Origin: Curvibacter sp. PAE-UM
GTDB lineage: Bacteria; Pseudomonadota; Gammaproteobacteria; Burkholderiales; Burkholderiaceae_C
Direction: 5' to 3'
DNA length: 32,978 nt
NCBI RefSeq assembly: GCF_001432305.1
Contig: NZ_KQ483358.1
Coordinates: forward strand, 1,853,972-1,886,949
Shown here: positions 2,575 to 27,024 of the stretch, piece after piece
Numbering within the stretch: position 1 is the first letter of the stretch
Layout: every line of letters begins with the position of its first letter
Notes under the pieces: generated by a model
Told to the model about the DNA's origin: nothing
The model's input: only the letters and a program-made list of their open reading frames with translations
Database searches by the model: none
Program-made: the position numbers and the translations under genes

Positions 2575-2594
2575 GCGCGCGCTGATGCGTGGCG

Positions 2595-2616: not shown

Positions 2617-2629
2617 GCGTTCACGTGTT

Positions 2630-3073: not shown

Positions 3074-3086
3074 GACGGGGGCTCTC

Positions 3087-3386: not shown

Positions 3387-3538
3387 TCTCAACGCTCCTT
3401 GTTAGGCGGGTGGATACCGCAACCATGATACGGGGGGAGGCATGGTCTGAGAACCGGTTCAGTGCCCTCATTAGGGTAAATATGGATGCCCCTGGGGGCG
3501 TAAATGGACCCGGTTGTGTTCGATCTGCGTCAACGGTG

Positions 3539-3625
3539 CCACGTCCGGCCCTGGAGAACGGCGTGCTCACGCTGCCGCTGCCCAGGAAACAGGGCAAGGG
3601 CGGGCAGAAGCTGCGCATCGAGTGA
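3539..3625 (+). pseudogene. Possible 3' remnant of an Hsp20-family small heat-shock gene
   Basis: A + strand frame ending in TGA at 3625 reads ..PALENGVLTLPLPRKQG and then ..KLRIE. This resembles the end of the alpha-crystallin domain of Hsp20 proteins (ENGVLTLTLPK followed by a basic R-I-x-I tail). Nothing upstream in the same frame looks like the rest of an Hsp20 domain, so if real it is a decayed 3' fragment of about 28 codons. The similarity is short and judged by eye. Confidence 0.35.
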
Positions 3626-3654
3626 AAGAAAAACGGGGGGCCGAGGCCCCCGTT
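3626..3654 (-). terminator. Rho-independent terminator of the phytase-like gene
   Basis: Read on the - strand: AACGGGGG, a 7-base loop, CCCCCGTT, then TTTTTCTTT. The stem is a perfect 8 bp followed by a T-rich tract, and it begins 24 bp after the stop of the - strand gene ending at 3678. This is a typical intrinsic terminator. Confidence 0.85.
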
Positions 3655-3677
3655 CTGCGCCGGGTCCGAAGGGACGC

Positions 3678-5039: not shown

Positions 5040-5110
5040 GATGGGCTTGGGTTGGTTGAACACGCAAGCCGCATGCTAGGCAGCGCATGTGACAACGCCG
5101 TGAACCGCCC

Positions 5111-6313: not shown

Positions 6314-6426
6314 GGTCTGTTCCCTTGAAGGGCCCGGGCGCGGCGGTCCCGGGGCATGGGGCCATGGTAGCGAATTCTGCGTGCCTGTCAGGCTGACGGT
6401 CCAGGCTGGTGTTGCACCGGCGCGTA

Positions 6427-6468
6427 ACAAAAAGAAAAAGGGGCCCGGTCAAAACACCGGGCCCCTTT
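6427..6468 (-). terminator. Strong intrinsic terminator of the TctC-type gene
   Basis: On the - strand, AAAGGGGCCCGGT, a 6-base loop, ACCGGGCCCCTTT, then TTCTTTTTG. The 13-bp stem (6437-6449 with 6456-6468) is perfect and is followed by a T tract. It lies 24 bp after the stop of the - strand gene ending at 6492. It is the clearest terminator in the window. Confidence 0.95.
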
Positions 6469-6491
6469 GGTTGCTGGAAGCGTGCAACGTT

Positions 6492-7472
6492 TCAGTCGGC
6501 TTCGATCTTCGAGGCTTTCACCACCTGCGCCCAGCGCGCCAGTTCGGCCTGCGTGAACTGGCCCAGCTGCTGCGGGTTCATGTAGTCGGCCTCGGCGCCC
6601 AGGTCCAGCGCCTTCTGCCTGAAGGCCGGCGTGGCCATGATCTTCGCGATCTCGGTCGTGAGCTTGTCCACCACGGGCTTGGGCGTCTTGGCGGGGGCGA
6701 AGACGGCGAACCAGGAGGTGGCGTCCAGCTTGGGCAGGCCGGCTTCGGCCGTGGTGGGCACATCGGGCAGGCTGGGCAGGCGCGCCTTGCCGGTCACAGC
6801 CAGCGCGCGCAGCTTGCCGCTCTGGATGTGGGGCACGAAGGGCGGGGGGGTGCCGAAGGTCAGGTCCACCTGGCCGCCCAGCAGGTCCTGCAGCGCGGGG
6901 CCCGTGCCCTTGTAGGGGACGTGGACCATCTGGATACCGGCCTGCTGCTCCAGCATGGCGCCCGTGACGTGCTGCAGCGAGCCGTTGCCCGAAGAAGCGT
7001 AGTTGAGCTTGCCCGGGTTGGCCTTGGCGTAGGCGACCAGCTCGGCCAGTGTCTTCACCGGCAGGCTGGCACGCACCACCACGACCTGCGGCGCCGACAG
7101 CACATTGGCCACGGGCTGGAAGTCGCTGGCATCCCACTGCAGCGGGGTCTTGCTCACGGCTGGTGTGATGACGTGGTAACCCGAGTACTGCATCAGCAGG
7201 GTGTGGCCGTCGGCATCGGCGCGCTTGACGATCATGGCGCCGATGGAGCCGTTGGCCCCGCCCTTGTTGTCCACGATCACCGACTGGCCCAGCGCGGTCC
7301 CCAGGGGCTGCGCCAGCATGCGGCCGGCAAAGTCCGTGGTGCCGCCGGTGGCGGTGGGGACCACCAGGGTGATCGGGCGGTTCGGGTAGTTGCCCTGGGC
7401 CAGGGCGCTGAAGGCCGCAGCAGCGGCCAGGGTGGCGAGCGCAAGGCGCAGGCGGTTACGCGGGTTCATCAT
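6492..7472 (-). CDS. Tripartite tricarboxylate transporter receptor (TctC/Bug family)
   Basis: A 326-residue periplasmic solute-binding protein of the Bug family, which is greatly expanded in Burkholderiales. Residues 1-25 are a signal peptide (ALA-QG). The mature protein starts with NYPNRPITLVVPTATGGTTDFAGRML, the Bug signature loop, and keeps QSVIVDNKGGANGSIGA and the PYKG.GPAL..LLGGQVDL.F segment. These receptors bind carboxylates such as citrate, glutarate or aromatic acids for TctAB permeases, or act as sensors. No tctA/tctB gene is in the window, so this is an orphan receptor. AGGAG six bases before the first of two adjacent ATG codons supports the start. It is the third gene of the - strand unit with the lyase and CoA-transferase, 25 bp after the lyase stop, and probably binds the acid they activate. 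Confidence 0.92.
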   Translation of the reverse strand: MMNPRNRLRLALATLAAAAAFSALAQGNYPNRPITLVVPTATGGTTDFAGRMLAQPLGTALGQSVIVDNKGGANGSIGAMIVKRADADGHTLLMQYSGYHVITPAVSKTPLQWDASDFQPVANVLSAPQVVVVRASLPVKTLAELVAYAKANPGKLNYASSGNGSLQHVTGAMLEQQAGIQMVHVPYKGTGPALQDLLGGQVDLTFGTPPPFVPHIQSGKLRALAVTGKARLPSLPDVPTTAEAGLPKLDATSWFAVFAPAKTPKPVVDKLTTEIAKIMATPAFRQKALDLGAEADYMNPQQLGQFTQAELARWAQVVKASKIEAD

Positions 7473-7497
7473 CGAAGTCTCCTGGTGTTGTGGGATG

Positions 7498-8502
7498 TCA
7501 GGGGGAGGGAACAGTATCAGTATCGCGCGCCAGGGCGCGGGTGCGGATGGTCTCGAAATCGGCGGGTACCGGGTGCAGGTCCAGGCGGCGGCCGGCCTTG
7601 GTGATCTGGCTGGGGGTGTCGTGGCCGATCAGGCCCGGCAGGCGGCGCGAGGCAGCGATCAGCCGCTCCAGGTCCACGCCCGTGTCGTAGTCCATGAGTT
7701 GCAGCGCATGCACCACTTCCTCGGTGCAGACATTGCCGGTGGCGCCCGGCGCATAGGGGCAGCCGCCGATGCCGCCCAGCGAGGCGTCGAAGCGGTCGGC
7801 CCCGGCATCGATGCCGGCCAGCACATTGGCCAGGCCCATGCCGCGCGTGTTGTGGAAATGCAGGGTCAGCTCGGTGCCCGGCCAGCGCTGGCGCGCCGCG
7901 TGCGTGAGCAATGCCACCTGGCCGGGGTAGGCCATGCCGGTGGTGTCGCACAGCGTGAGGCCGTGCACGCCCAGGTCGACGAAGCGCTGGGCCCAGGCCA
8001 GCACCGTGGGCTCCGACACATCGCCTTCCATCGGGCAGCCGAAGGCGCAGGACAGCGAGATGTTCACGGACACCTGCTGCGCCCGCGCCAGCTGCACCAC
8101 CTGCGCCAGGGCGGCGAAAGACTGCTCGCGTGTCATGCGCAGGTTGGCCAGGTTGTGGGTCTCGCTGGCCGACATCACCAGGTTGAACTCATCAGCGCGC
8201 GCTTCGATGGCGCGTTCGGCGCCGCGCAGATTGGGCACCAGCGCGCTGTAGACCACACCGTGGCGGCGTTCGATCTCGCGCAGCACGACCTCGGCGTCGC
8301 GCAGCGCGGGGATGGCCGTGGGCGAAGTGAAGGAGGTGACCTCGATCTTGGACAGGCCGGTGGCCGACAGCGCGTTGACCAGGGCGATCTTGTCTTCGGT
8401 GGGCACGAAGACGCATTCGGCCTGCAGGCCGTCGCGCGTACCGACTTCCTGCAGGTGGATACGGCGGCCGGCGCCATGCCAGAGGGAGGAGGTGATGTTC
8501 AT
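7498..8502 (-). CDS. Hydroxymethylglutaryl-CoA lyase-family protein
   Basis: A 334-residue member of the HMG-CoA lyase branch of the pyruvate-carboxyltransferase (TIM-barrel) family. HMG-CoA lyases split (S)-HMG-CoA to acetyl-CoA and acetoacetate with a divalent metal. The active-site parts are present: GTRDGLQ at 21-27 (Arg23, Asp24), metal ligands His215 and His217 in LTLHFHNTRGMGLAN, and the family loop GGIGGCPYAPGATGN at 243-257 with Cys248. It overlaps the upstream CoA-transferase gene by 4 bp (8499-8502), indicating coupling. With a CaiB-type transferase as partner, a different 3-hydroxy-3-methyl acyl-CoA such as a citramalyl-type thioester is also possible. The fold and chemistry are firm; the substrate is not. 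Confidence 0.9.
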   Translation of the reverse strand: MNITSSLWHGAGRRIHLQEVGTRDGLQAECVFVPTEDKIALVNALSATGLSKIEVTSFTSPTAIPALRDAEVVLREIERRHGVVYSALVPNLRGAERAIEARADEFNLVMSASETHNLANLRMTREQSFAALAQVVQLARAQQVSVNISLSCAFGCPMEGDVSEPTVLAWAQRFVDLGVHGLTLCDTTGMAYPGQVALLTHAARQRWPGTELTLHFHNTRGMGLANVLAGIDAGADRFDASLGGIGGCPYAPGATGNVCTEEVVHALQLMDYDTGVDLERLIAASRRLPGLIGHDTPSQITKAGRRLDLHPVPADFETIRTRALARDTDTVPSP

Positions 8503-11692: not shown

Positions 11693-12887
11693 GCTTTTGC
11701 ACCAGGGTCCAGGCCGCCAGGGCGATCATCACGCTCCAGAAGCACACGCCGTACATCAGGGGTCGCACGGTGCCATCCATGGCCGTGCCCAGCCAGTGGC
11801 CGACGATGAAGGACGTCACCGCCATCAGGAAACCGTTGAGCGCCGAGGCCGCACCCGCGGCATAGGGAAAGGGGCCGACGGCGCCGCTCTGGCTGCAGGG
11901 CTGGTGCACGCCGTGCGCCAGCATGAAGAGGTAGAAGGGCAGCATGATGGCCCAGCCATTGTGCAGGCCGGTCAGCGCGAAGATGCCCATCAGCGTGCCG
12001 CCCGTGAGCGTGAACCCCGCCGCCAGGGCCACCGAGCGCCGCACGCCCAGGCGCGGCAGCAGGCGCCGGCAGGCCAGCGTGCCCAGGATGTAGGTGAGGG
12101 ACACCGTGGCCATGATGAAGCCGTAAGCCGGCCGCGACAGACCCAGCACGTCGATGAAGACGAAGGACGAGGAGGCCAGCACCGTGAACAGCCCGCCGTA
12201 GGAAGCAGCCGAGAGCGCGGACCAGGCCCAGAAGGTCGGGTGGCGCACGATACCGCGCCAGGTCTGCAGCAGCGTGGCCGGCTGCAGGGCCTGCGGGTTC
12301 TTCTGCTTCACGGTCTCCTCGAAGCGCCAGGCCACCAGGGCCAGCGTGGCCGCGCCGAACACCGAGAGCGCCAGCAGGGCGATGCGCCAGCCGGCCCAGC
12401 CCGAGAGCACGCCGCCCAGCGGCCCGCTGAGGCAGGCGATCACGCCCAGGCCGGTCAGGCCCTTGGACATCATGCGTGCGCCCTCCACGGGCTTGTACAG
12501 GTCGCGCACGATGGCGCGCGCGCACATCACGCCCGCGCCCATGGCCACGCCCTGCAGCACGCGCGCCAGGATCAGCAGTTCCATGGTGGGCGCCAGCGTG
12601 CTGACCACCGAGGCCAGCACATAGGCCCCCAGGCCCCAGAGCAGGATGGGCCGGCGGCCAAAGCGGTCCGACAGCGGGCCCCAGACCAGCTGCGAGATCC
12701 CGAAGGCCAGCAACAGCGCGGTGAGCGTGAGCTGCGCCTGCGGCAGCGTGGCACCGAAGCCCGCAGTCAGCGCGGGCAGGGCAGGCAGGTAGAGGTCGGT
12801 GGTGATCGGCTGCAGCCCCAGCAGCAGGGACAGGAAAAGCACGATCAGGGCGGGGGACATGGCGGTGGCAGGGGCCGGGGCAGACAT
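11670..12887 (-). CDS. Bcr/CflA-type MFS drug-efflux transporter
   Basis: A 405-residue major-facilitator protein with twelve predicted helices. The N-terminal segment [25 protein letters not shown] is typical of the Bcr/CflA branch (12-TM drug:H+ antiporters). Loop 2-3 carries motif [17 protein letters not shown], near 71-86. Motif C-like G.LSG..GPLGG is seen in helix 5. Likely exports small hydrophobic antibiotics or metabolites across the inner membrane; the substrate cannot be read. The start at 12887 has no strong Shine-Dalgarno sequence, and an alternative ATG nine codons later is possible. It overlaps miaA by 23 bp and is divergent from the AT-rich orphan gene. Confidence 0.9.
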
Positions 12888-12918
12888 CCGGTCGAGGGTA
12901 GCAGATCAGTTGACTCAT

Positions 12919-12934
12919 TCCCCCGTTTGGGGGA
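12919..12934. promoter_or_regulatory. Palindrome TCCCCC-GTTT-GGGGGA in divergent intergenic region
   Basis: Perfect 6-bp arms with a GTTT spacer, in the 112-bp gap between the MFS exporter (- strand) and the orphan gene starting at 13000. It could be an operator for either gene or for both; no dedicated regulator gene is adjacent. Confidence 0.4.
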
Positions 12935-12960
12935 TAGGCAAGTTCGAGAGTGGCAGCTAG

Positions 12961-12980
12961 GATGCAGCGAAGCCTGCATC
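12961..12980. promoter_or_regulatory. Hairpin GATGCAG-CGAAGC-CTGCATC before the orphan gene
   Basis: Perfect 7-bp inverted repeat with a 6-base loop, ending 19 bp before the ATG at 13000. It would fall in the 5' leader and could be an operator or an mRNA hairpin. Function not determinable. Confidence 0.4.
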
Positions 12981-12999
12981 ACTTCAGGGATGGATCTGC

Positions 13000-13488
13000 A
13001 TGTCTCGCGTCAAACTAATTGTTCTGATATTACTTGCCATAGCTGCATTGACAGCCGCTGGGTTTTTCCTTTATCCAAGTCCACAAACCACCAGCTTCAC
13101 ATTGCCAGATACGCCGGAGAGACGGTTTCTTGCGGAGGAGCAGGCGAGGTGCGCCGGGATTTTTCACGTATTTCGTGTTACGTTGAAAAAAGGGACTTCT
13201 TACTACGAAGAGTTCAACAAAGAATACACCGATGCCTATGTACGTCACGCGACTGCTGCGGCCAAGTTGCACTTTGATGAAGAAACGTCAACGGCACAGA
13301 TACACCAAGCCTCGCTTGCACTTGGGAAACGGCTCGAGGAGATCGTTGCTCGAAATGATGATGTAAAAAATAAAATAAAAGATGTAAAAACGATCGAGGA
13401 TGCAGAGACGAGTGAGTGCCAAAGAGTCGAATTGAAAACCATTGCATTCGTCGAGCGTGCACTTCAGGCGCACGCGGCTAGACGCTGA
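13000..13488 (+). CDS. AT-rich orphan: membrane-anchored hypothetical protein, 162 aa
   Basis: No family recognised. Residues 1-3 are a short basic end and 5-25 a hydrophobic segment (signal anchor or uncleaved signal), followed by a 135-residue charged, helix-rich domain. That domain contains exactly two cysteines (Cys51 and Cys140), which could form a periplasmic disulfide. A Lys/Asp-rich stretch near 119-136 may be a coiled coil. GC content is far below the neighbours: about 37% over 13321-13380 and 48% over 13201-13260, with the lysine-coding runs AAAAAATAAAATAAAA. A weak AGGGA precedes the ATG. The base use suggests acquisition from another lineage. The product is predicted to sit in the inner membrane facing the periplasm. 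Confidence 0.75.
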   Translation: MSRVKLIVLILLAIAALTAAGFFLYPSPQTTSFTLPDTPERRFLAEEQARCAGIFHVFRVTLKKGTSYYEEFNKEYTDAYVRHATAAAKLHFDEETSTAQIHQASLALGKRLEEIVARNDDVKNKIKDVKTIEDAETSECQRVELKTIAFVERALQAHAARR

Positions 13489-13540
13489 CCAGTAGCTTGA
13501 TGCAAGCCTGTTTTTGAGTCAGCAACCTGGGTTGGATTTG

Positions 13541-14392
13541 TCAGCGCAGCCCGAAGAGCTCGTTGATTGCCACCCTGTACTGCGACTGTCCCACCGAGTT
13601 GGTGTTGTGGTGCGAGCCGCCTTCCACCAGCACGAAGGCCTTGCGGCCCGTGGCGGCATCGAAGAGCTTGCGGCCCAGGTCGGGCGGGATCAGCTTGTCG
13701 TTGGCGCCGTGCACCACCAGCAGGGGCGAGCCGATGTCGGGCACGCGTTTCACGGCCTCGAAGCGCTGGGTGATCAGCGGGCCCACGGGTAGCCAGCCCC
13801 ACTTGAAAGTACTGACCACGTCGGGGATGGAGGTGAAGGTGCCTTCGACCAGGGTGCCGACTTCGTCTTCCACCTGCGCCGCCAGCTCGATGGCGATGGC
13901 GCCGCCCAGGGAGTGGCCGAAGATGTAGCGCGGCCGACCGGGGTATTGCCGGCCCAGCCAGTCCCAGGCGGCGCGCGCGTCCTCGTAGGCCAGGGTTTCC
14001 GAGGGCAGCTCGGGCGTGCTCTTGCCAAAACCGCGGTAGTCCACCGCCAGCACCGAGAAGCCCAGCTCCTGCATGCGGCGCGCGCGGAAGGCCGAGCCCA
14101 CCACGTTGAAACGCGCGCCGTGCAGGTAGAGCAGCACCGGAGCATTGGACTTGCGGGCCAGGTCCGGGTGGGCCAGCCACAGGCCGTGCAGCTTGACCGG
14201 CTGGCCGGTCTCGCGCGAGGTGAAGTTGACCCACACATCCTTCATGCCCTGGGCGGCCTCGTCGCCGCGCCACCAGCTGCGGTCCGAGGGCTGGAAGATC
14301 CAGGTGCGCTGGCGTTCGTCCAGCGTGGCGCAGCCGGTGACCGCTGCAACCACGGACAGCAGGGCCAGAACAAGGAGGAACCAGCGTTTCAT
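13541..14392 (-). CDS. Alpha/beta-hydrolase lipoprotein
   Basis: A 283-residue lipid-anchored alpha/beta hydrolase (FrsA/BEM46-like serine hydrolase). The lipobox VTGC puts the lipidated Cys at residue 21. The catalytic triad can be placed: Ser161 in GHSLGG, Asp232 in HGANDKLIP and His261 or His262 in EGGSHHN. An oxyanion-hole HG motif lies at 91-92, and VDYRGFGKS near 118-125 is the usual strand-turn. Likely an esterase or thioesterase on the outer face of a membrane; substrate unknown. Codons 17-33 are duplicated in degraded form at 16620-16667, immediately after a duplicated mutL 3' end. This implies the gene once followed mutL directly. Confidence 0.88.
   Translation of the reverse strand: MKRWFLLVLALLSVVAAVTGCATLDERQRTWIFQPSDRSWWRGDEAAQGMKDVWVNFTSRETGQPVKLHGLWLAHPDLARKSNAPVLLYLHGARFNVVGSAFRARRMQELGFSVLAVDYRGFGKSTPELPSETLAYEDARAAWDWLGRQYPGRPRYIFGHSLGGAIAIELAAQVEDEVGTLVEGTFTSIPDVVSTFKWGWLPVGPLITQRFEAVKRVPDIGSPLLVVHGANDKLIPPDLGRKLFDAATGRKAFVLVEGGSHHNTNSVGQSQYRVAINELFGLR
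14287..14335. repeat. Direct-repeat copy 1 of the hydrolase 5' segment
   Basis: This 49-bp stretch inside the alpha/beta-hydrolase gene recurs at 16620-16667 with a few substitutions and one missing base. The two copies are in direct orientation and bracket the lipoprotein and rhodanese genes. Confidence 0.85.
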
Positions 14393-16699: not shown

Positions 16700-16894
16700 T
16701 CAACGTCCGCGCAGGAACAGCGCGTCCAGGTCCTTCAGCGTGACCTGCCGCCAGGTCGGGCGGCCGTGGTTGCACTGGTCGGAACGTTCGGTCTGCTCCA
16801 TGTCGCGCAGCAGGGCGTTCATCTCTTCCAGGGTTAGGCGGCGCTTGGCGCGCACGGCGCCATGGCAGGCCGTGGTGGTCAGTAATTCGTTGCA
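16700..16894 (-). pseudogene. Second copy of the mutL 3' end
   Basis: 195 bp aligned without gaps to 18571-18765 at a constant offset of 1871 bp; I count about 19-20 differences (near 90% identity). Read on the - strand it ends with the mutL stop codon, and its last 44 codons encode exactly the same residues as intact mutL. The few replacements (Asn to Lys, Lys to Arg, Met to Thr) lie further upstream. Differences in the coding part are mostly synonymous, so this piece diverged while still part of a working mutL, probably in another lineage, and was broken only later. Confidence 0.9.
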
Positions 16895-16959: not shown

Positions 16960-17036
16960 GGCGGCAACTTTCTGACGCCGGGGGCCTCCGGCTTCCCGGT
17001 ATGCCCTGTCTGCCGTGCTCCTACAGGAGGGCTGCC

Positions 17037-18527
17037 ATGTCGCTTGTTGCTTCCCTCGACCACAGTCTGGTCGATATCGGTACGCCGGCCAAGCTGAACT
17101 TCGCCGGCAACATTTCCCTGATGGCGTGGGTGCGCGCGGGCCGTACCGACGGCTTCCGCAACATCATTGCCCATGGCCTAAGTACCTCGCAGGCCGAGGT
17201 CTGGCTGCGCATCTACAACGGCCTCTATCACGTTGGCTCATGGGGCATCGCGCGCCAGGACCACAAGGCCACGGCCGCAGTTCCACCCGAGGACGTCGGC
17301 CGCTGGGTGCATCTATGTGGTACGCATGACGGCAGTGTGTGGCGCCTCTATCGCAACGGTGTGCTGGCCGGCCAGGGGGCAGACCCGGTGGGCGCGCTGC
17401 AAGTGCCCGAGCCCTGGGGTATAGGCGGACGGCCGACAGGTGGCGATCCGCGCTACTTCGAGGGGCTGATCGCCCACGTGTCGGTCTGGAACGTCGCACT
17501 CGATGTGGCCGTGATCGCGGCGTACGCGCGGTACCCGGCGGCGCTGCAGGGCTCGGAAGCCGGGCTGGTGGCCTACTGGCCGATGACCGAGGGCACGGGA
17601 CAGGTGATCGCTGACAAGTGCGCGAATCCGGCCAACGGCACGCTGCGGTCCTGGCGGGACGAGGGCCGCCTGCCGGGCTGGGCGCTTGAGAGCGCCGGCA
17701 CGGGGTACGCTACGGATTCCTACAATCCCTTGCTCGTGCTGAACGGCAAGGCCTGGAAGATCAGAGGCGACGCGTCGGTCGATGCCGTCGTCTCGGCGTC
17801 CCTCACCGACCTGAGCACCTGGACCTCCGAACTGCGCAGTCCGCCCTGGACGCGCCGGGCCTGGGCGAGTTCCATCGTGCACCAGAACGCCATGTACCTG
17901 TTGCCGGGGAGAGGCGTTACCGACATCTGGTCGTCGACCGACGGGGTGAACTGGCGCGTCGTGACCAACTCCGCGCCGTGGGCGCCGCGTGAGGTCGCTG
18001 CGGTGGCCTCCTTCCAGGGCCGACTGTGGGTCATCGGCGGCCAGGCCGGCGCGTCTACGTTCAAGGATGTCTGGTCGTCGGCCGACGGCGTCAGCTGGCG
18101 GCAGGAGGCCACGCCGGGCTGGAGGTATGGCCGCACCGGCGCCGTGGCCTGCGTGTTCGGCGGTCGGCTGTACCTGATCGCGGGCCAAGAGGGCTACAAC
18201 ACGGCCGACGTGTGGTCGACCGACGGGACCAGCTGGCGCCTTGACCAGGAACAGGCTTTTCCCCCGCGTTTCGGCGCGAGCGCCGTGGTGCTCGGCAACC
18301 GCATGTACGTGCTCGGTGGTGTGGTTTCTGATGGGGCGCCGCCCGGTGACATCTACTGCACGGACAACGGCAGCGTGTGGAGCCAGATTGCGACGGCCAG
18401 CCCTTGGGGTGGCCGCAACCAGCAAGGCGGCAGCGTCATCAATGAGCGCATCGTCATCTCTGGCGGGATGACTCGGCCGGGTACACCGCGCGACCTTGAC
18501 GACGTCTGGTCCTACGTGCCGCTCTAG
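17037..18527 (+). CDS. LamG-like plus Kelch/beta-propeller repeat protein
   Basis: A 496-residue protein with two parts. Residues about 1-185 form a laminin-G/concanavalin-like sandwich (FAGNISLMAWVRAG, GRWVHLCGTHDGSVWRLYRNG, FEGLIAHVSVWNVALD, YWPMTEGTGQVI). Residues about 215-495 contain at least four Kelch-type blades, with repeated pairs such as LWVIGGQAG..FKDVWSSADGVSWR, LYLIAGQEG..TADVWSTDGTSWR and MYVLGGVV..DIYCTDNGSVWS. Both parts usually bind carbohydrate or protein. No signal peptide or membrane segment is visible, so it is either cytoplasmic or exported by a leaderless route. ATG 17037 follows AGGAGG by six bases, a very strong ribosome site. The gene sits alone between two copies of the mutL 3' end, in opposite orientation to mutL. 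Function unknown. Confidence 0.85.
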   Translation: MSLVASLDHSLVDIGTPAKLNFAGNISLMAWVRAGRTDGFRNIIAHGLSTSQAEVWLRIYNGLYHVGSWGIARQDHKATAAVPPEDVGRWVHLCGTHDGSVWRLYRNGVLAGQGADPVGALQVPEPWGIGGRPTGGDPRYFEGLIAHVSVWNVALDVAVIAAYARYPAALQGSEAGLVAYWPMTEGTGQVIADKCANPANGTLRSWRDEGRLPGWALESAGTGYATDSYNPLLVLNGKAWKIRGDASVDAVVSASLTDLSTWTSELRSPPWTRRAWASSIVHQNAMYLLPGRGVTDIWSSTDGVNWRVVTNSAPWAPREVAAVASFQGRLWVIGGQAGASTFKDVWSSADGVSWRQEATPGWRYGRTGAVACVFGGRLYLIAGQEGYNTADVWSTDGTSWRLDQEQAFPPRFGASAVVLGNRMYVLGGVVSDGAPPGDIYCTDNGSVWSQIATASPWGGRNQQGGSVINERIVISGGMTRPGTPRDLDDVWSYVPL

Positions 18528-18570: not shown

Positions 18571-18765
18571 TCAGCGGCCGCGCAAAAACAGCGCGTCCAG
18601 GTCTTTCAGCGTGACCTGCCGCCAGGTCGGGCGGCCGTGGTTGCACTGGTCGGAGCGTTCGGTCTGCTCCATGTCGCGCAGCAGGGCGTTCATCTCTTCC
18701 AGCGTGAGCTTGCGGTTGGCGCGCACGGCGCCGTGGCAGGCCATGGTGCCCAGCAGCTCGTTGCG
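18571..18765. repeat. Direct-repeat copy 2: 3' end of intact mutL
   Basis: The mutL portion matching 16700-16894, in the same orientation. The two copies bracket 1676 bp that carry the LamG-Kelch gene. Confidence 0.9.
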
Positions 18766-20484
18766 GGCGCGCTGGATGACGGTGCTGGCCTCGTGCTGTC
18801 CCAGCTCGGCCAGCACGCTGCGCGCCAGTTCCACCGCATCGCCCTGCGCCAGGGTGGACGGCACGGCGCGCACGGCCAGCGTCCTGGGTGAGAAAGAGGT
18901 GATCTCCAGGCCCAGGGTCTGCAGCGTGGTGGCGTGCGCCTCGGCCGTGGCCACTTCCTGCGGCGTGGCGGCGAAGGTGGCGGGGATCAGCAGGGGCTGG
19001 CTGCTGATGGCCTGCACATCGAGCTGGTTCTTGAGCCGCTCGTAGACGATGCGCTCGTGCGCGGCGTGCATGTCCACCACCACCAGGCCCTGGGCATTCT
19101 CGGCCAGGATGTAGACCCCGTGCAGTTGGGCGACCGCGCGGCCGAGAGGCCACGCGCTCTCCGTGGCTTCGCGGCCCGGGGGCCAGGCCTGCGGGGCGCC
19201 GTCGGCGGGTTGGGGCCTGGCCTCGGACAGCGCCGCCGAGCCGGGTTCGCGCACCGCCCAGGCCGGCGGCGTGGGTGCTGTTGCGGACGCAGGCTGCCAC
19301 AACGCGGCCAGGTCGTGCACTTCATGGCCGCGCGCGGACGTGTCGTTTGCTCCGAAATTGATAGCGGGTTGCGCCCAGGGCGCCGGTGCGATGGGGCGCG
19401 CAATGTCGGCCAGGTGGGCCGGCACCGCAGCACCGCCGTGGACGGCCGCCTGCGCGCGCGGCGCGGCCAGGGCGTTTTCCACGGCGTGGCGCACGGCCTG
19501 GTGCACTTCGCGGCCGTCGCGGAAGCGCACCTCGATCTTGGTGGGGTGCACGTTGACGTCCACGCGCGCCGGGTCGATCTCCACGTAGAGCGCGTAGACC
19601 GGCTGGCGGTGGCCGTGCAGCACGTCTTCGTAGGCGCTGCGCGCGGCGTGCGTGAGCACCTTGTCGCGCACGTAACGGCCGTTGACATAGCAGAACTGGT
19701 GGTCGGCGCGCGAGCGCGCGGCGTCCGGGATGCCGGCGCGGCCCCAGACCCGCACGCCGGGCAGGCGCAGGCTCGTGCCGTAGTCCACCACGATGGATTC
19801 GGTGATGAAGTCCTCGCCCAGCACGTCGGCCAGGCGCTGCTGCAGAGCGTCGGGCCCACTGCACACGCGCCACTGCTCCACCAGCTTGCCTTCGTGCCAG
19901 ATGGCAAAACCCACGTCGGGCCGGGCCAGGGCGTGGCGGCGCACGGACTCGATGCAGTGCGCCAGTTCGGTGGCGTCGGTCTTGAGGAACTTGCGGCGCG
20001 CCGGCGTGCTGAAGAACAGCTCCTTCACCTCCACCGTGGTGCCCGCGCTGCGCGCCACGGGGCGGATCTCGCCGGTGCGGCCGTCCAGCAAAAAGGCGCT
20101 GGACTGCTCGGCCACGCGCGAGAGGATGGCGCAGTCGGCAATCGAATTGATGGCGGCCAGCGCCTCACCGCGAAAGCCCATGGTGCCCACGGATTCGAGA
20201 TCCTGCAGGCTGCCGATCTTGCTGGTGGCGTGGCGTTTCAGGGCAATGGGCAGCTCGTCGCGCGGAATGCCAAAGCCGTTGTCCTCCACCGCGATCAGGC
20301 GCACCCCGCCGGCCAGCAGGCGCACGGTGATCTGGGTGGCGCCGGCGTCCAGCGCGTTGTCCACCAGCTCGCGCACCACCGAGGCGGGGCGCTCCACCAC
20401 CTCGCCAGCGGCGATCTGGCTGATCAGCTCATCCGGCAGTTCACGGATGGGGCGGCGGGGGGCGGGGGAGTGGGGGGCGTTCAC
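18571..20484 (-). CDS. mutL: DNA mismatch repair protein MutL
   Basis: A 637-residue MutL, the ATP-dependent link between MutS and downstream excision in mismatch repair. The GHKL ATPase is intact: ELVDNALDAG at 39-48 (catalytic Glu39, Mg-binding Asn43), EDNGFGI near 67-73, KRHATSKI near 83-90 and TMGFRGEAL near 101-109. The C-terminal domain carries DMHAAHERIVYE from residue 471, matching the endonuclease metal motif DxHAxxExxxxE, as well as ACHGAVRA and CNHGRPT. It is therefore probably a nicking MutL, as expected in bacteria without MutH. The start is GTG with no obvious Shine-Dalgarno sequence; no better start was found. Its last 65 codons are duplicated at 16700-16894. Divergent from the SIR2 gene across 184 bp. 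Confidence 0.97.
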   Translation of the reverse strand: MNAPHSPAPRRPIRELPDELISQIAAGEVVERPASVVRELVDNALDAGATQITVRLLAGGVRLIAVEDNGFGIPRDELPIALKRHATSKIGSLQDLESVGTMGFRGEALAAINSIADCAILSRVAEQSSAFLLDGRTGEIRPVARSAGTTVEVKELFFSTPARRKFLKTDATELAHCIESVRRHALARPDVGFAIWHEGKLVEQWRVCSGPDALQQRLADVLGEDFITESIVVDYGTSLRLPGVRVWGRAGIPDAARSRADHQFCYVNGRYVRDKVLTHAARSAYEDVLHGHRQPVYALYVEIDPARVDVNVHPTKIEVRFRDGREVHQAVRHAVENALAAPRAQAAVHGGAAVPAHLADIARPIAPAPWAQPAINFGANDTSARGHEVHDLAALWQPASATAPTPPAWAVREPGSAALSEARPQPADGAPQAWPPGREATESAWPLGRAVAQLHGVYILAENAQGLVVVDMHAAHERIVYERLKNQLDVQAISSQPLLIPATFAATPQEVATAEAHATTLQTLGLEITSFSPRTLAVRAVPSTLAQGDAVELARSVLAELGQHEASTVIQRARNELLGTMACHGAVRANRKLTLEEMNALLRDMEQTERSDQCNHGRPTWRQVTLKDLDALFLRGR

Positions 20485-20668
20485 CGGGGCATTTTAGGCT
20501 GAGGGGGAGGGGCGGTTGCGGCGGGCGGATTGCGGACACTCGCGCAACTGGCAAGGCCGAAGTCATATGGAAGCGCACCTCAGTGAGTACTTCGGAATGG
20601 CGCGCGGTATGCTCTACTCAGATCGCTACGAATGCGCCGAACTGTAAATGGCCGTTTAAGATTAGAGC

Positions 20669-22189
20669 ATGCCGGAAGCGTCGATTTACATACCAGATCA
20701 GATACTTAAGGACGCTGCGAAGCACGGCGAGCTGGTCGTCTTCGTCGGTGCTGGTGCGTCCAAGCTTTGCGGCAGCCCCGATTGGCGTGGATTCGCAGAT
20801 CAAGTGGTTAATGCACTCGAGAGGGGCGGCGTGCTCGGCTTCTTGGAGGCGGAACAGCTGCGCGGACTTGGCGACTCGCGGCGAACACTCTCAATTGCGA
20901 TGGCGCTTGCCGAGAAGAAGGGCATAGCAATCGATTTCGACAGCATCTTGCACCCGCCCAAGCCTGAGGCGATTGGCTCCGAGCTGTATGAGTTACTTTC
21001 GAACTTGCGGCCTGTCTTCGTTACAACGAACTACGACAAGTGGCTCGACGAAGCTGGCCCGGAAGAGCTCTCGACGGAGGTCAAGGTGGGCGGAGAGGCG
21101 GAGCCGGCGAAGGGGCCAAGCAGAAGACCAAAGTACTACCTGCGTGAGCACTTGTCCCCAGCCCTGCTGGCAGAGAGGGGGGCAGTCATCCATCTCCATG
21201 GCTCCTATGTGGACCCGAGTTCGATGGTGGTCTCGCTGAAGGAGTACATCGAGCACTATGCGGACCCGCGCGTTGACGCATTCCTCAGGGCAATGTTCAA
21301 GAATCATACGGTGTTGTTCGTTGGCTATGGCCTTGCGGAACTGGAGATCCTAGACCACATCATCCGCTCCAACGAGTCTCTGCGAACGGGGAAAGCTGAG
21401 CCGCGACACTTCCTGTTGTATGCCTATCGGTCAACCGAGTCAGTCCAAAAAGGTTTCCTCGAACACTTCTTTCGCGACCAGTGTGGGGTTTGCGTTATTC
21501 CGTACTGCATCGACACGAAGGGCTATCGGGAAGTCGTTGAGGTCTTCAAGGGCTGGAACTCGGAGTTGGATGTACGCGACCCAACCACGTTAGACCTTCA
21601 ATCGCACCTTGATCGGTGTATCGCTTCACCCACTGCAGTCAATCGAGAAGCGGCTCTTCGTCTTGTGAGAAAGTGGCCCGAACTCGCCTCCTACTTTGTC
21701 AATTCCCTGAAGGACGCGGTTTGGTTCGGCGACCTCGACAGTGCTGGCTTCTTCGAAGTGGAACACAGCCCCAAGGTGAAGGTCGTCGAGAGCGAACGTG
21801 GCACCCTGTACCAGGCTGAGGGGTGGCCCGCACTGCGCTATCTTGAGCAGATTGCCGCGTCAGCACAGGGCGACCAGGCTACTCGAATTGCCGGCATTGT
21901 TCGGGCTATTAGTTCGGACGCTCAGCAGCGAGGTTTGGACAATTGGAGGACTTGGTGGTCCCTTGCCACAATCCTGTCGCAGTTGCCGCTTGACGTAATG
22001 ACGGACTTGGACGTTGACATGATTCGCTCTTGGCTGGCGGGCCGGTTCGAGTCAAACATGGTGGGCCAAGAGCTAGGCGAGAAGCTGCTGCCGCGACTCC
22101 TCGATAGTTCAGAGCCGGCGAACTGGCATAGGGCACTGCTGCTGGTTGAAGCATTGACGATGGTGCGGCGCACCGGGGAGTCATCATGA
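20669..22189 (+). CDS. SIR2-domain protein with helical tail, probable anti-phage NADase
   Basis: A 506-residue SIR2-like (SIR2_2 type) protein. The NAD-binding parts are visible: VVFVGAGAS at 23-31, FVTTNYDKW at 117-125 (Asn121), VIHLHGSY at 173-180 (His177, candidate catalytic base) and LFVGYGLAELEILDHII at 216-232. No zinc-finger cysteine pattern of protein deacylases is seen, so NAD cleavage is more likely than deacetylation. Residues about 300-500 are helical and include a WFGDLDSAGFF...WPALRYLEQIA module seen in large HEAT-like bacterial proteins. SIR2 proteins of this layout (DSR1, DSR2) deplete NAD when they sense phage proteins. Ribosome site weak (AGAG). GC is visibly lower than the flanking genes. 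It overlaps the next gene by ATGA, so the two are a coupled pair; the phage-defence role is inferred. Confidence 0.87.
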   Translation: MPEASIYIPDQILKDAAKHGELVVFVGAGASKLCGSPDWRGFADQVVNALERGGVLGFLEAEQLRGLGDSRRTLSIAMALAEKKGIAIDFDSILHPPKPEAIGSELYELLSNLRPVFVTTNYDKWLDEAGPEELSTEVKVGGEAEPAKGPSRRPKYYLREHLSPALLAERGAVIHLHGSYVDPSSMVVSLKEYIEHYADPRVDAFLRAMFKNHTVLFVGYGLAELEILDHIIRSNESLRTGKAEPRHFLLYAYRSTESVQKGFLEHFFRDQCGVCVIPYCIDTKGYREVVEVFKGWNSELDVRDPTTLDLQSHLDRCIASPTAVNREAALRLVRKWPELASYFVNSLKDAVWFGDLDSAGFFEVEHSPKVKVVESERGTLYQAEGWPALRYLEQIAASAQGDQATRIAGIVRAISSDAQQRGLDNWRTWWSLATILSQLPLDVMTDLDVDMIRSWLAGRFESNMVGQELGEKLLPRLLDSSEPANWHRALLLVEALTMVRRTGESS

Positions 22190-24420
22190 GCGACAGAGCT
22201 GGGGTATTGGACAGCTACCATCTGGGCGAAGTGCTGAAGACGTCGGCGAGGAAGCTCGGCGAGCGTTGTGGCGCCTCCGCTGTTGACATGTTGGCTCGCC
22301 GCTTGGCCGAGTACATTGGCTCCGCCGAAGACGACAAGTATTCATACATCTGGCGCTCGGCGATTGAAGACCACGAGCAGGATGCTCACAAAGATGACAC
22401 GCGCGCCAAACTTGTTGATGCCGTCCGTGATGCTGCTCTAGGTGCTACGAGCACCAGCTCTCCCGCGGCTATGGCCGTTGCGGAGTCGCTTCTTCAATCT
22501 CCCTATCCGACGCTTAATCGCGTGGGAATCTATGTGTGTGGCGAGCACTACGGAACCGTCGGAGCAGCCTTTTGGGAATGCGCAAAGGAGAGATGGTTTC
22601 TCGACGTTCATTACTGGCATGAACTCTATTGGCTCATCAACAAGGCCTTCTCCAAATTCTCCGCCTCCCAAAGGGCTCAGTTTTTGCGCTTCGTAGAGCA
22701 ACTCAAAGCGGATTGGGCGGACGAATCACGGCAGGAGGAGTGGGACGAAACCCACAAGCGTGACCTCTTGCATCCGGCGTTCGGGCTGGGCGACACAGAG
22801 GTAGATGAGAAGTACCAAGCCCTGGTGCAACGTTGGGGACCGGTGCGAGACCACCCAGATTTCCATACCTACTCCACCAGCGGGCGGGTCGGAGACCGAA
22901 GCCCCGTAGCATCCGATGCGCTGGTTGGCATGTCTGACGCGGAGTTGGTGGCCTGCCTCAAGGGCTTTGTTCCAGATGCTCGAAGTTGGGATGGCCCGAC
23001 ATACCGAGGACTTGCCTCGTCAATCTCTGCCGCAGTGAGGGCCAGCGATGATGGCTTTGCTCAACGAATCGGCCTCTTCGCTGACTTGGCACGTCCATCC
23101 CAACATGGCCTGCTTCGGGGACTCAAGGAACGGTGGTCTGACGACAAGCGAGACATCAATTGGCCAGCGACGTTGTCGCTTGTACAGGCAATCGTTTCCT
23201 CGCCGGCCTTCAGAGTCGATTTGGCTGCAGACCCGCCGAAAGGGTGGGAGCCTTCCGTGCATTGGGTTGTGAGCGACATTGCCGACCTCTTGAAGAGCGC
23301 ATCAGGAACAGAGCGCCACCTGCCATCGGAGCTCTACAAGTCTGGCCTTCAAGTTCTGCGTCTTGTACTCGACGCCACCCCTACAGAGGCCGGACAGTCG
23401 AACGATGCCGTTTCGCATGCAATCAACTCCCCAAGGGGTCGGGCTCTGGAGTCTTTCATTCATCTCGCGCTGGCAATGCGACGCGAGGAGGTTGCGGCAA
23501 AGTTAGGTTCAGGTGAGACCTGGGTCGCAGTCGGACCGGTGTTTGATGCCGAACTGGCAACCAGCGAGTCCGGGCTGAATGCTGACTTCTCGGCGATGGC
23601 CGGGATGTACTGCGCGAACTTCCACTACATAAACGCAGAGTGGACGGAAGCCAACTTTGACAGGCTCTTCTCGTCCACCAGCGAAGCAGCTTGGAAGTGC
23701 GCGGCGCAAGGCTTCGCGTATCAACACCACCTGTACGACTGGCTATTTGAGCGCCTTGTCACAGGCGGGCACCTGAGGAGGATGGTTTACTCGGAAGGCC
23801 TCCCTGACCAGGTGGCGGAGAGAGCTCTGCAGTTCCTGGGGCTTGCCTATCTTGAAGGCATGGAGAGCCTCGATGGAGGCGGGCTTCTCAGCGAACTCGT
23901 TGCGGAGCTGAGGGTCAAGGATCTATCGCAGTTGTGCTGGTACTTTTGGACACTTCGGGGGAAGGCTGCCTCTTCCGCCCGCACGTCCAAGATACTGACG
24001 TTCTGGATGAAGGTGGCAGAGCAGGTTCGGGCAAACCGAGCCAACGTGCCTGAACTACAGTCGGCCCTCAGCCAGCTGGCGGTCTTCATTCACGAGCTAA
24101 CGCCGGTCGCGTTAGAGGCATTGGTTGAGGCGGCGCCGCACGCGCAGGTTGGGCATCATGGCTACATGCTGGTCGAGAACCTTGCGCGTCTTGCGAACCA
24201 GTATCCAAAAGAGGTGGCCGCCATCTTCCGCGCAGCGATGTCCGGCTTCTTGCCTGACTACCGCAAGGAGGACGTAATTCGATGCGTCAATTGGTTGGCG
24301 GAGGCGGGCGAGGTCGAAGAAGCCGAGCGGATATGCAACGCTTACGCGGACCGGGGCTCGACACTACTAAAGGACACATACGAGGCATTGCGTGCGAGAC
24401 AGCGTGCGCCGAGTAGCTAA
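22186..24420 (+). CDS. Large helical partner of the SIR2 protein, 744 aa, family unassigned
   Basis: Not a family I can name with confidence. The sequence is rich in Leu, Ala, Trp and charged residues, with no P-loop, no nuclease signature, no signal peptide and no membrane segment. It reads as a long alpha-helical (HEAT/TPR-like) solenoid. Notable segments are YSYIWRSAIEDHEQD near residues 51-65, WKCAAQGFAYQHHLYDWLFERLV in the middle and HHGYMLVENLARLANQYPKEVAAIF near the end. The end is reminiscent of the DUF4020-like tails I associate with SIR2 proteins (low confidence). ATG 22186 overlaps the SIR2 stop (ATGA) and has GGGGAG five bases before it, so it is a true separate start under translational coupling. 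Likely the sensor, scaffold or inhibitor half of a two-protein defence system. Combined length with SIR2 is 1250 residues. Confidence 0.82.
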   Translation: MSDRAGVLDSYHLGEVLKTSARKLGERCGASAVDMLARRLAEYIGSAEDDKYSYIWRSAIEDHEQDAHKDDTRAKLVDAVRDAALGATSTSSPAAMAVAESLLQSPYPTLNRVGIYVCGEHYGTVGAAFWECAKERWFLDVHYWHELYWLINKAFSKFSASQRAQFLRFVEQLKADWADESRQEEWDETHKRDLLHPAFGLGDTEVDEKYQALVQRWGPVRDHPDFHTYSTSGRVGDRSPVASDALVGMSDAELVACLKGFVPDARSWDGPTYRGLASSISAAVRASDDGFAQRIGLFADLARPSQHGLLRGLKERWSDDKRDINWPATLSLVQAIVSSPAFRVDLAADPPKGWEPSVHWVVSDIADLLKSASGTERHLPSELYKSGLQVLRLVLDATPTEAGQSNDAVSHAINSPRGRALESFIHLALAMRREEVAAKLGSGETWVAVGPVFDAELATSESGLNADFSAMAGMYCANFHYINAEWTEANFDRLFSSTSEAAWKCAAQGFAYQHHLYDWLFERLVTGGHLRRMVYSEGLPDQVAERALQFLGLAYLEGMESLDGGGLLSELVAELRVKDLSQLCWYFWTLRGKAASSARTSKILTFWMKVAEQVRANRANVPELQSALSQLAVFIHELTPVALEALVEAAPHAQVGHHGYMLVENLARLANQYPKEVAAIFRAAMSGFLPDYRKEDVIRCVNWLAEAGEVEEAERICNAYADRGSTLLKDTYEALRARQRAPSS

Positions 24421-24567
24421 GGGCAGCGAGCTGGGTAGCAAAGGAATTGCGTGGCAGGACTCGTCCGTCTGCTTGCGCCCATCCGAGATCGGTGAGTGTC
24501 GTCTTTGAGTCGAAAACTAGCACCGACCCTGCTCGGAACCCGCGCAGGCGTCAGCCCCCGACCCCGC

Positions 24568-27024
24568 TCAAATATGCCCCAGCGCCCGCAACACCTTCTC
24601 CGGCGTGACCGGCTGTGACCAGCATTCCGCCTTGAGCGGGCGCAGCGCGTCGTTGATGGCATTCACCACCGCGCCCGGCGCGCCGGCCGTGCCGGCTTCG
24701 CCCGCGCCCTTGGCGCCCAGCACCGAGCTGCGCGTGGGCGTCTCCACGTGCGCGACCACGATGTCGGGCATCTCGCCGGCCATGGGCACCAGGTAGTCGG
24801 CCATGCTGCCGTTGGTCATCAGGCCTTCGTCGTCGTACAGGCATTCCTCGAACAGCGCACCGCCGATGCCCTGCACGATGGCGCCGCGGATCTGTTCGTC
24901 CACCAGCTTGGGGTTGATGACGCGGCCGCAGTCTTCCACCGCCCAGTGCTTGAGCAGTTTCACAAAGCCGGTCTCGGTGTCCACCTCCACATAGGAGGCC
25001 TGCACGCCGTTGGTGAAGATGAAGGGGTAGTCACGCTGCGCGTAGTGGCGCGTGACCACCAGTTCCGAGGTGAAACCCGCCGGCAGCGTGTCCGGGCGGT
25101 AGTAGGCCACGCGGCCCAGTTCCTTCAGGTCCAGCAGGGTTGCGCCGCTCACGGCGTCCTTCACCACGCCGGCGCTGACGGTCAGGCCGGTGGCGTCGCG
25201 TTGCAGGATGGCCTCGGCCACTTTCAGGATGTTGCTGCGCAGGGCCAGGCCGGCTTGCAGCACGGCTTCGCCGCCGATGCCGGCGCCGCGCGAAGCCCAG
25301 GTGCCGCCGCCATAGGGCACGGTCTCCGTGTCGCCGGTCACCAGGCGCACCGCGCTCATGGGCACGCCCACGGCGTCGGCCGCGATCTGCGCGAAGATGG
25401 CCTCGGTGCCCTGGCCCTGTTCGCCCACGCTCACCATCACGGCCACGCCGCCGGTGGGCTCCAGCCGGATGGTGGCGCCATCCTGCGAGGAGATGCGCGC
25501 GCCGCCCACGCCGTAGAAGGCGGCGCTGGGGTTGGTCAGTTCGATCAGGGTGGCAAAGCCGATGCCGCGGTAGATGCCCTTGGCGCGCAGCGCGGCCTGT
25601 TCGGCGCGCAGCGCGGGGTAGTCCATCAGCGCCTCGATCTTGCGCAGACAGGCTTCATGCGAGAGCACCTCCAGCTTGATGCCGGATGCGCCGGTGGCCG
25701 GGTAGGCGTGGTCGGGGATGACGTTGCGCTGGCGGAAGGCCAGCGGGTCCATGCCCAGCTTGGCTGCGGCCAGGTCCACCAGGCCTTCGGTCACGGCGCA
25801 GGCAATCGGGTGGCCCACGCCGCGGTATTGGCAGGTGGGCGTTTTGTTGAGGAAGACCACGCTGAGCTTGGCGCGGTAGGCCTTGTGCTTGTAGGGGCCG
25901 CCGGTGAGGTTGACGACCTGGTTGCCCTCGATGCCGCTGGTGCGCGGGAACATGGAGAAGGGGCCGATGCCGGTGACGTCGTCGATCTCGAAGGCCAGGA
26001 TGTCGCCCTGCTTGTTGGCGGCAATCCGGCCCTTGATGCGGTGTTCGCGCGCATGGATGTCGCTGGTGAAAGACTCCAGCCGGTCGGCCACGAACTTCAC
26101 CGGGCGCTTGAGCAGGATGGAGACGGCCACGGTGGCGAAGTCGTCCGGGTAGGCGTGCACCTTGATGCCGAAGGACCCGCCCACGTCCTTGCAGATCACG
26201 CGCACGGCCGATTCAGCCAGGCCGAACTGGCGCGAGTACAGGTCCTGCATCATGTGCGGCGCCTGCTGCGAGTGGTAGACGGTGAGCTGGCCGGCGGCCG
26301 GGTTGTAGTCGGCAATCTGGCAGCGCGGCTCCAGCGTGACGCCGGTGTGGCGGCCGAAGTCGAAGGTGGCCTCGGCCACCACGTCGGCCTGGGCAAAGGC
26401 CTCGTCCACGCCGCCGGTGTCCAGGCTGCGCGCGAAGCACAGGTTGTCGCCGAGCTCGGGGTGGATCACCGGCGTCTCGGGCGCCAGCGCGGTGTTCATG
26501 TCCAGCGCGGCGGGCAGGGCTTCCCATTCCACCTGCACGTACTGCAGCGCGTCCTCGGCCTCGGCGCGGGTCTTGGCCACCACGGCCACCACGGGCTCGC
26601 CCTGCCAGCAGGCGCGGTCGATGGCCATGGGGTATTGCGGTGCCGACTTGATGCCGGCCAGGTGCGTGAGGGTGGCCACCCAGGGCTTGCAGATGGCGGC
26701 CAGGTCCGGGCCGTCGTAGACGCCCAATACGCCGGGCATCATGCGCGCGTAGTCGCGCTCGATGCGCAGGATCTTCATGTGCGCCACCGGCGAGCGCCAG
26801 AACACCACATGGGCCATGCGCGGCAGTTCCAGGTCGTCCACATACTGGCCGCGGCCTTCGGTCAGGCGTTCGATGTTGGGGCGCGGGATGGCCTGGCCGA
26901 TGTGGCGTGCATCCTTGAGCGGGCCGGTGAGCGGCTCGGCCACCGGGGTGTGCGGTGCCTCGGCGCGTGCGGCCTGCGCGTCTTCCAGCGATTTCTTCAG
27001 GGCGCGTGACTCGGGGGCGTTCAT
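24568..27024 (-). CDS. Xanthine dehydrogenase-family molybdopterin-binding large subunit (form II CoxL-like)
   Basis: An 818-residue catalytic subunit of a molybdenum hydroxylase. It carries the molybdopterin cytosine dinucleotide and Mo centre that inserts water-derived oxygen into a substrate C-H bond. Seen: GRGQYVDDL near 58-65, the GGSFGIK loop at 282-288, QYRGVGHPIA at 399-408 and GAKGAGEAG near 771-778 (Glu776, the expected catalytic base). True aerobic CO dehydrogenase (form I) has AYxCSFR with the Cu-binding Cys; here the loop is QYRGVGH, close to the AYRGAGR of form II. CO oxidation is therefore unlikely, and the substrate is probably an aldehyde, purine or N-heterocycle. Last gene of a four-gene - strand operon, overlapping the 2Fe-2S gene by 4 bp, with AGGAG seven bases before its ATG. 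Confidence 0.93.
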   Translation of the reverse strand: MNAPESRALKKSLEDAQAARAEAPHTPVAEPLTGPLKDARHIGQAIPRPNIERLTEGRGQYVDDLELPRMAHVVFWRSPVAHMKILRIERDYARMMPGVLGVYDGPDLAAICKPWVATLTHLAGIKSAPQYPMAIDRACWQGEPVVAVVAKTRAEAEDALQYVQVEWEALPAALDMNTALAPETPVIHPELGDNLCFARSLDTGGVDEAFAQADVVAEATFDFGRHTGVTLEPRCQIADYNPAAGQLTVYHSQQAPHMMQDLYSRQFGLAESAVRVICKDVGGSFGIKVHAYPDDFATVAVSILLKRPVKFVADRLESFTSDIHAREHRIKGRIAANKQGDILAFEIDDVTGIGPFSMFPRTSGIEGNQVVNLTGGPYKHKAYRAKLSVVFLNKTPTCQYRGVGHPIACAVTEGLVDLAAAKLGMDPLAFRQRNVIPDHAYPATGASGIKLEVLSHEACLRKIEALMDYPALRAEQAALRAKGIYRGIGFATLIELTNPSAAFYGVGGARISSQDGATIRLEPTGGVAVMVSVGEQGQGTEAIFAQIAADAVGVPMSAVRLVTGDTETVPYGGGTWASRGAGIGGEAVLQAGLALRSNILKVAEAILQRDATGLTVSAGVVKDAVSGATLLDLKELGRVAYYRPDTLPAGFTSELVVTRHYAQRDYPFIFTNGVQASYVEVDTETGFVKLLKHWAVEDCGRVINPKLVDEQIRGAIVQGIGGALFEECLYDDEGLMTNGSMADYLVPMAGEMPDIVVAHVETPTRSSVLGAKGAGEAGTAGAPGAVVNAINDALRPLKAECWSQPVTPEKVLRALGHI

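Follow-up and report, generated by a model that had tools for sequence, protein, structure and literature searches.

We analysed a 32,978-nucleotide stretch of the Curvibacter sp. PAE-UM genome (contig NZ_KQ483358.1; the whole stretch is called the window), in which two overlapping genes encode a SIR2-domain protein (gene 1) and a long helical protein (gene 2). An earlier note on this DNA had described two overlapping open reading frames (ORFs) and a shift in GC content, and both descriptions hold: the products of 506 and 744 amino acids (aa) come from frames that overlap at an ATGA, and when GC content is measured in 1-kb windows it is ~0.57-0.60 over the pair, against 0.64-0.72 in most outside windows and 0.69-0.72 in those directly adjoining the pair. 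The genome carries one copy of the pair. No promoters or terminators were listed in a scan of positions 20450-24650, and no inverted repeats of at least 16 nt were found in 20300-24800. The features of the locus are given in Table 1.

Table 1. Features of the gene pair and of its insertion site, in window coordinates.
Feature	Position	Strand	Description
Gene 1	20669..22189	+	506 aa, ATG start; SIR2 NADase-like domain (residues 1 to ~300) and first ~200 residues of the Dsr1-type helical part
Gene 2	22186..24420	+	744 aa, ATG start; Dsr1-type C-terminal helical protein, predicted sensor
ATGA overlap, gene 1 stop / gene 2 start	22186..22189	+	4-nt overlap, 6/7 loci with the same cut
GGGGAG, Shine-Dalgarno-like	22175..22180	+	5 nt upstream of gene 2 start
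Helical segment of gene 1	21581..22186	+	Part of the second gene in relatives cut near residue 305
Asn121 codon (TTNYD)	21029..21031	+	Predicted NAD-site residue; TTN aligned with DSR2; invariant, 31 loci
His177 codon (HLHG, second His)	21197..21199	+	Aligned to DSR2 His171; invariant, 31 loci
Inserted stretch, mutL to coxL-like gene	20502..24541	.	Holds little besides the pair

The proposed SIR2 NADase-like identity of gene 1 is supported by several lines of evidence. The GAGAS, TTNYD, HLHG and VGYG motifs are present in its translation, the protein matches Pfam SIR2_2 above the family cut-off (E = 1.6e-18), and Asn121 and His177 are kept in 31/31 loci compared (the 32 SIR2-side loci of the tree described below, minus L078). 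The position aligned to His177 is Ala in the DSR2 H171A chain 8wyb and His in wild-type DSR2. Additionally, a profile of gene 1 relatives retrieved DSR2, KomC, ThsA and FAM118B chains from the PDB, and the SIR2 fold of the AlphaFold2 (AF2) model of gene 1 (mean predicted local distance difference test score, pLDDT, 84) matches KomC, ThsA and DSR2. Among the alignments listed, the root-mean-square deviation was 4-6 against SIR2-only chains and ~17-21 against full-length DSR2 chains; beyond the SIR2 part, we see no support in the model for a fold match of gene 1 to DSR2.

Upon comparing the two proteins with defence-system models by profile search, as had been proposed, we found that they are consecutive parts of the PADLOC Dsr1 model PDLC04166 (1227 positions), with gene 1 covering positions 12-474 (E = 1.3e-76) and gene 2 positions 501-1223 (E = 1.1e-86), nearly collinear across the junction. 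The suspected relationship to DSR1 is thus supported by matches of both proteins, and the assignment of gene 2 to no family, made in the earlier note, has to be given up. On the NCBIfam Dsr1 equivalog NF041818, which has a cut-off of 1400 bits, gene 1 scores 15.4 and gene 2 scores 54.6 bits, whereas canonical single-chain Dsr1 proteins reach 1537 (L162) and 2010 bits (L164) in the same class and 2089 (L165) and 1966 bits (L168) in the same family. A divergent single-chain protein (L170) scores 302 bits, and two fused relatives of the window pair score 58 (L070) and 64 bits (L084). Because the equivalog scores lie so far under the cut-off, we place the gene pair, on sequence grounds, as a distant two-chain Dsr1-like subfamily and not as a Dsr1 equivalog. 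With DSR1 it shares the order of a SIR2 domain followed by a long helical region, a similar total length and a span of PDLC04166 almost from end to end, the N-terminal SIR2 with its catalytic Asn and His lying in gene 1 and the long Dsr1-type helical region represented by gene 2. It differs in that DSR1 is a single polypeptide, whereas here there are two overlapping genes. DSR1 is termed a single-gene system in one source (PMC10973363), and another reports that it inhibits phage without cell death (PMC10952713). In the literature searched, with subscription papers mostly outside it, we found no earlier description of a two-gene DSR1-like system; this does not establish absence from print.

Relatives were collected by a profile scan of genome contigs with two peptide patterns, which yielded 60 loci, so that further relatives may exist. 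With the addition of the window, of L030 (genome G018, from the same genus), of L029 (a Vibrio coralliilyticus plasmid) and of L058 (genome G620), the set came to 64 loci, whose architecture was read from local profile and ORF calls. The tree holds 59 of these as rows, leaving out L074 (broken), L086 (truncated), L095 and L111 (both partial) and L079 (a duplicate of L058). In this unrooted tree a branch with support of 100/100 separates 32 rows, all with SIR2, from the remaining 27. Two-chain forms account for 30 of the 32 SIR2-side rows. In 23 of them the cut lies near residue 305, giving a SIR2 protein of ~300 aa and a helical protein of ~940 aa, a group in which L071 is cut off by its contig, the L062 ORF is without the first ~60 SIR2 residues, the second gene of L078 is broken, and longest-ORF calls lengthen gene 1 in L061, L078 and L085. 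Seven are cut as in the window, and two are fused (L070, 1228 aa; L084, 1242 aa). The seven loci with the window-type cut form one clade (100/100), which spans Comamonadaceae, Alcaligenaceae and Oxalobacteraceae among its named members. The same-genus locus L030 has the other cut, near residue 305. In L074, L078 and L086, from two Nitrosomonas genomes and a Rhodospirillales metagenome-assembled genome, the helical gene is broken or truncated.

The position of the cut bears on a second proposal of the earlier note, namely that effector and sensor functions are divided between the two chains. The two-gene split itself is genuine, being conserved in seven loci of one clade, but a clean division of functions is not supported. 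By our own reading of the alignments, the helical segment of gene 1 resembles residues ~10-190 of the second protein in L030 and L029. The window cut falls inside the helical part and does not separate an effector from a sensor domain; it is not a functional border, because gene 1 keeps ~200 helical residues and relatives are cut at ~305 or uncut. In the models the cut lies between predicted helices, where the tail of gene 1 is predicted with low confidence and the beginning of gene 2 with moderate confidence.

Several observations bear on the reality of the junction. The genes overlap by 4 nt in six of the seven window-type loci and by 8 nt in the seventh, and purine-rich, Shine-Dalgarno (SD)-like words of at least 4 bases, at a spacing of 4-9, precede gene 2 in 7/7 (weakest in L079 and L082). 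Of the 25 other two-gene loci, 17 have an overlap of 4 or 8 nt when the longest ORFs are called, and the remaining 8 have one of 1-44 nt. The ratio of nonsynonymous to synonymous substitution rates (dN/dS) between the window and L079 is 0.135 for gene 1 and 0.123 for gene 2, the corresponding values being 0.150 and 0.157 with L082, and 0.103 and 0.106 with L080, where dS already stands at 1.4-1.5. These three loci are the ones for which the ratio was computed, dS being saturated for L081, L083 and L087, and in L080 the gene 1 position homologous to the window start is no start codon. By these sequence comparisons, both genes are under purifying selection where it is measurable. Distances between SIR2 domains and between C-terminal lobes across 31 loci are correlated (Mantel r = 0.86, with 0/2000 permutations as high), as merely linked genes would give likewise. 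A programmed frameshift joining the chains was considered and rejected, as in 7/7 loci the final 21 gene 1 codons contain no in-phase slippery heptamer. The two-gene split is real and conserved, and a chance origin of the observation is excluded by the E-values and by the seven loci with the same two-gene arrangement.

Among other SIR2 defence systems, KomC (Kongming) and ThsA (Thoeris) are SIR2 NADases of multi-gene systems, as is predicted for gene 1, and are among the sequences and folds nearest to gene 1; the partner here is a helical protein, and gene 2 matched only Dsr1 models in the PADLOC scan. Thoeris consists of the SIR2-SLOG protein ThsA with a TIR partner, ThsB; in our case ThsA models match gene 1 within its SIR2 part only, and Pfam gave no TIR or SLOG family. 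SIR2-HerA (Nezha) is likewise a two-gene SIR2 defence, for which NAD depletion is reported in V. cholerae (PMC11559045), but its partner is a HerA ATPase rather than a helical repeat protein; in the PADLOC scan gene 2 did not match HerA, and the genes flanking the pair are mutL and a xanthine dehydrogenase-type gene. In DSR2 the SIR2 domain and the positions of its catalytic His and Asn match gene 1, whereas gene 2 is without a sequence match to DSR2 chains.

Next, we examined the genomic context of the pair, which sits between mutL and the xanthine dehydrogenase-type (coxL-like) gene. Flank similarity to genomes G010 and G014 extends to 20501; beyond the pair it starts again at 24542 in G014 and at 24566-24568 in G004 and G025, and the insert therefore holds little else. 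Among 13 relatives, mutL and the coxL-like gene adjoin in three (L157, L159 and L160; 58-67 nt between match ends), are 1.2 kb apart in L158 and ~5.6 kb apart in L150, and in the other eight the second flanking gene was not found within the fetched stretch. At the mutL-coxL site of L150 (G014; 1981-7560) lie lower-GC ORFs matching the PADLOC candidates PDC-S06, PDC-S73 and PDC-S57, which suggests that the site is a small defence hotspot. On the Vibrio plasmid (L029, 1-3263) the homologous genes have as neighbours a HerA gene paired with SIR2 and a gene with a SLATT domain, so that two SIR2 systems adjoin. Furthermore, in a neighbourhood survey of the kind that had been called for, 126 ORFs around 27 of the 32 SIR2-side loci match 357 PADLOC models, compared with 33 for 126 control ORFs (E 1e-10); the figures refer to models, among which redundant restriction-modification ones are numerous, and not to distinct ORFs, and the controls come from 18 arbitrary stretches of 18 genomes of the window's class only, while the loci come from many phyla. 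The defence-like context proposed for the pair is supported by these observations.

Elsewhere in the window, the last ~65 mutL codons occur twice, in direct repeats of 194 nt with 90% identity (16700-16893 and 18571-18764). The repeats flank a LamG/Kelch-domain gene (17001-18527), as though this gene had entered at the 3' end of mutL. A second low-GC stretch (~0.57-0.58) lies at ~12500-14000, and there is an alpha/beta hydrolase ORF at 13541-14392.

The distribution of the pair is patchy. Strong matches to both halves were found in 2/26 genus genomes (the window's and G018, with different cuts), in 2/399 genomes of the family sample (the window's and G620) and in 1/370 of the class sample, this being the window's own. 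At E 0.001 the totals are 3/26, 29/399 and 17/370, respectively, and the extras are mostly other SIR2 or canonical Dsr1 proteins. Among plasmids, a gene 2 relative occurs in 1/72,556 records, and gene 1 matches 117 records, with coverage of at least 80% only on the plasmid that carries the gene 2 relative. In phage genomes a tblastn search found gene 2 relatives in 0/50,697 records, and two pattern-limited scans of IMG/VR confirmed none.

We read the locus as a conserved two-chain system of Dsr1 type that is most likely an NADase triggered by phage. In DSR2, as described in PMC10981675, the domain order is SIR2, middle and C-terminal sensor, the protein is a tetramer with the SIR2 domains at its centre, and binding of a tail tube protein to the C-terminal domain switches the NADase on. 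Following this precedent, we infer that the overlapping genes would yield chain 1 (SIR2 and an N-terminal helical lobe) and chain 2 (a C-terminal helical lobe) together, that the two would join into a unit corresponding to a single DSR protomer, with oligomerisation probably via SIR2, and that the C-terminal lobe would sense a phage protein and allosterically activate the SIR2 NADase, with the loss of NAD+ then halting infection. The helical lobe of chain 1 might correspond to the DSR2 middle domain, a guess made from its position only. We assign a probability of roughly two in three to a two-chain Dsr1-like defence complex that is constitutive and whose C-terminal lobe senses a phage protein and switches the NADase on. 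On this reading the activation logic would not differ from that of single-chain DSR, contrary to the suggestion of the earlier note.

Several points weigh against this interpretation, in addition to the low equivalog scores of both proteins and the limits of the neighbour comparison given above. The AF2 model of gene 2, built from 29 sequences, is all-helical (mean pLDDT 88), and Pfam has no family for it; the PDB gave no useful sequence match. Foldseek gave 979 hits of the model with E up to 10; the best 50 are helical-repeat proteins of a generic kind, for example importins (best E = 2.7e-4), and DSR2 is absent among these 50, though a weak fold match is possible. Homology of gene 2 to the DSR2 sensor was accordingly rejected as a candidate, there being no sequence match to DSR2 chains and the listed folds being generic, and a sensor fold common to both is not demonstrated by sequence or fold searches. 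The defence role is predicted here from sequence and genomic context, and so are activity, binding and behaviour towards phage.

Among the alternatives, a neutral gene fission, in which the pair acts exactly as a single-chain Dsr1 and the break is functionally meaningless, is a real if minority possibility. The cut differs between groups (~305 or ~500), fused forms occur, and the window cut lies between predicted helices next to a low-confidence tail, all of which would fit such a history. On the other side, two-chain forms make up 30/32 SIR2-side rows and have been kept over a long divergence, so that this arrangement may be the older or the preferred one; fission and fusion are indistinguishable in the unrooted tree. 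Between neutral fission and the constitutive two-chain complex the difference is one of degree only.

An unlikely alternative is that gene 2 holds SIR2 inactive and frees it on binding a phage protein, in the manner of a toxin-antitoxin pair. Separate chains permit dissociation, and overlapping genes suggest controlled stoichiometry. However, the natural fusions L070 and L084 on the same side of the tree cannot release SIR2, the window cut leaves ~200 helical residues on the SIR2 chain, and the DSR2 tetramer is activated by the tail tube protein at its C-terminal domain (PMC10981675). Because fused members occur, the chains are compatible in cis, and because one family has both fused and split forms, a constitutive complex fits better than SIR2 release.

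Improbable, though favoured by the ordinary chromosomal genes that neighbour the pair in the scanned window (mutL, xanthine dehydrogenase-type genes and the LamG/Kelch protein) and by a defence role that is a prediction, is a sirtuin that serves housekeeping or metabolism and has a helical adaptor. The patchy distribution (2/399 family and 2/26 genus genomes), the low GC content, the site being empty in 3/13 relatives, the defence-rich contexts and a SIR2 fold nearest to KomC, ThsA and DSR2 argue against it. Finally, a single Dsr1-like gene that a frameshift or an error in sequencing had split has a negligible chance and was rejected, since, although both ORFs together align to one Dsr1 model almost gaplessly, the genes overlap at the same cut in 7 loci of one clade, dN/dS is 0.10-0.16 on both genes in the three computable pairs with the window, and SD-like words stand before gene 2 in 7/7.

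The 27 rows on the other side of the tree are far relatives of the window pair. In 10 of them the helical scaffold is fused to an N-terminal domain without SIR2 motifs and in 7 it lies beside such a domain; in 2 (L093 and L094, nearly identical, L094 ending at a contig end) there is an apparent cut within the helical part, after the N-terminal domain; another 7 have a SIR2-like gene in trans, recognised in five by a profile hit and in L110 and L113 by our own motif reading only, and 1 was left unclassified. Matches to PDLC04166 begin at ~291-295 in L092, L107 and L118 and at 545 in L099, ending at 1082-1219, and the N-terminal domain therefore sits where Dsr1 has SIR2. The bearers of this domain, in cis or in trans, are L091, L092, L096, L097, L099, L101, L103-L109, L112, L114, L115 and L118, including Nitrosopumilaceae archaea (L107, L108). 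An alignment of the helical domain in 17 rows, with L093 in and L105 and L094 out, shows invariant His71, Arg74, His189 and Asp229, plus Met1. In ten proteins scanned, no Pfam family reached its cut-off for this domain, and the PDB gave no convincing match. From its position, the domain is a candidate effector. In the Parcubacteria-type locus L093 (5700-9181) one gene encodes the N-terminal domain together with the first helical stretch, and a second gene encodes the remainder; this cut resembles the window's.

Taken across both sides of the tree, the Dsr1-type helical scaffold could be a portable sensor platform, ancestrally a separate chain, with exchangeable effectors (SIR2 on one side, and on the other often the His-Arg-His-Asp helical domain). 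On this view single-chain DSR1 would have arisen by fusion, and the break between the chains would have occupied two or more positions: it would have shifted onto the SIR2 chain in the window clade and, apparently, a second time in the Parcubacteria-type locus with the other domain; we hold this tentatively, at somewhat less than even odds.

What is of interest in this family is how widely the two-chain form occurs, that its cut shifts and that the N-terminal domain is exchanged. Software built for a single Dsr1 chain may misname or overlook two-chain systems, and the far relatives give a hint of a so far unrecognised effector on the same sensor scaffold. If most relatives on the branch are two-chain, sensor and NADase would be separable, mixable and exchangeable, and the switching from sensor to SIR2 in DSR systems would become directly testable.

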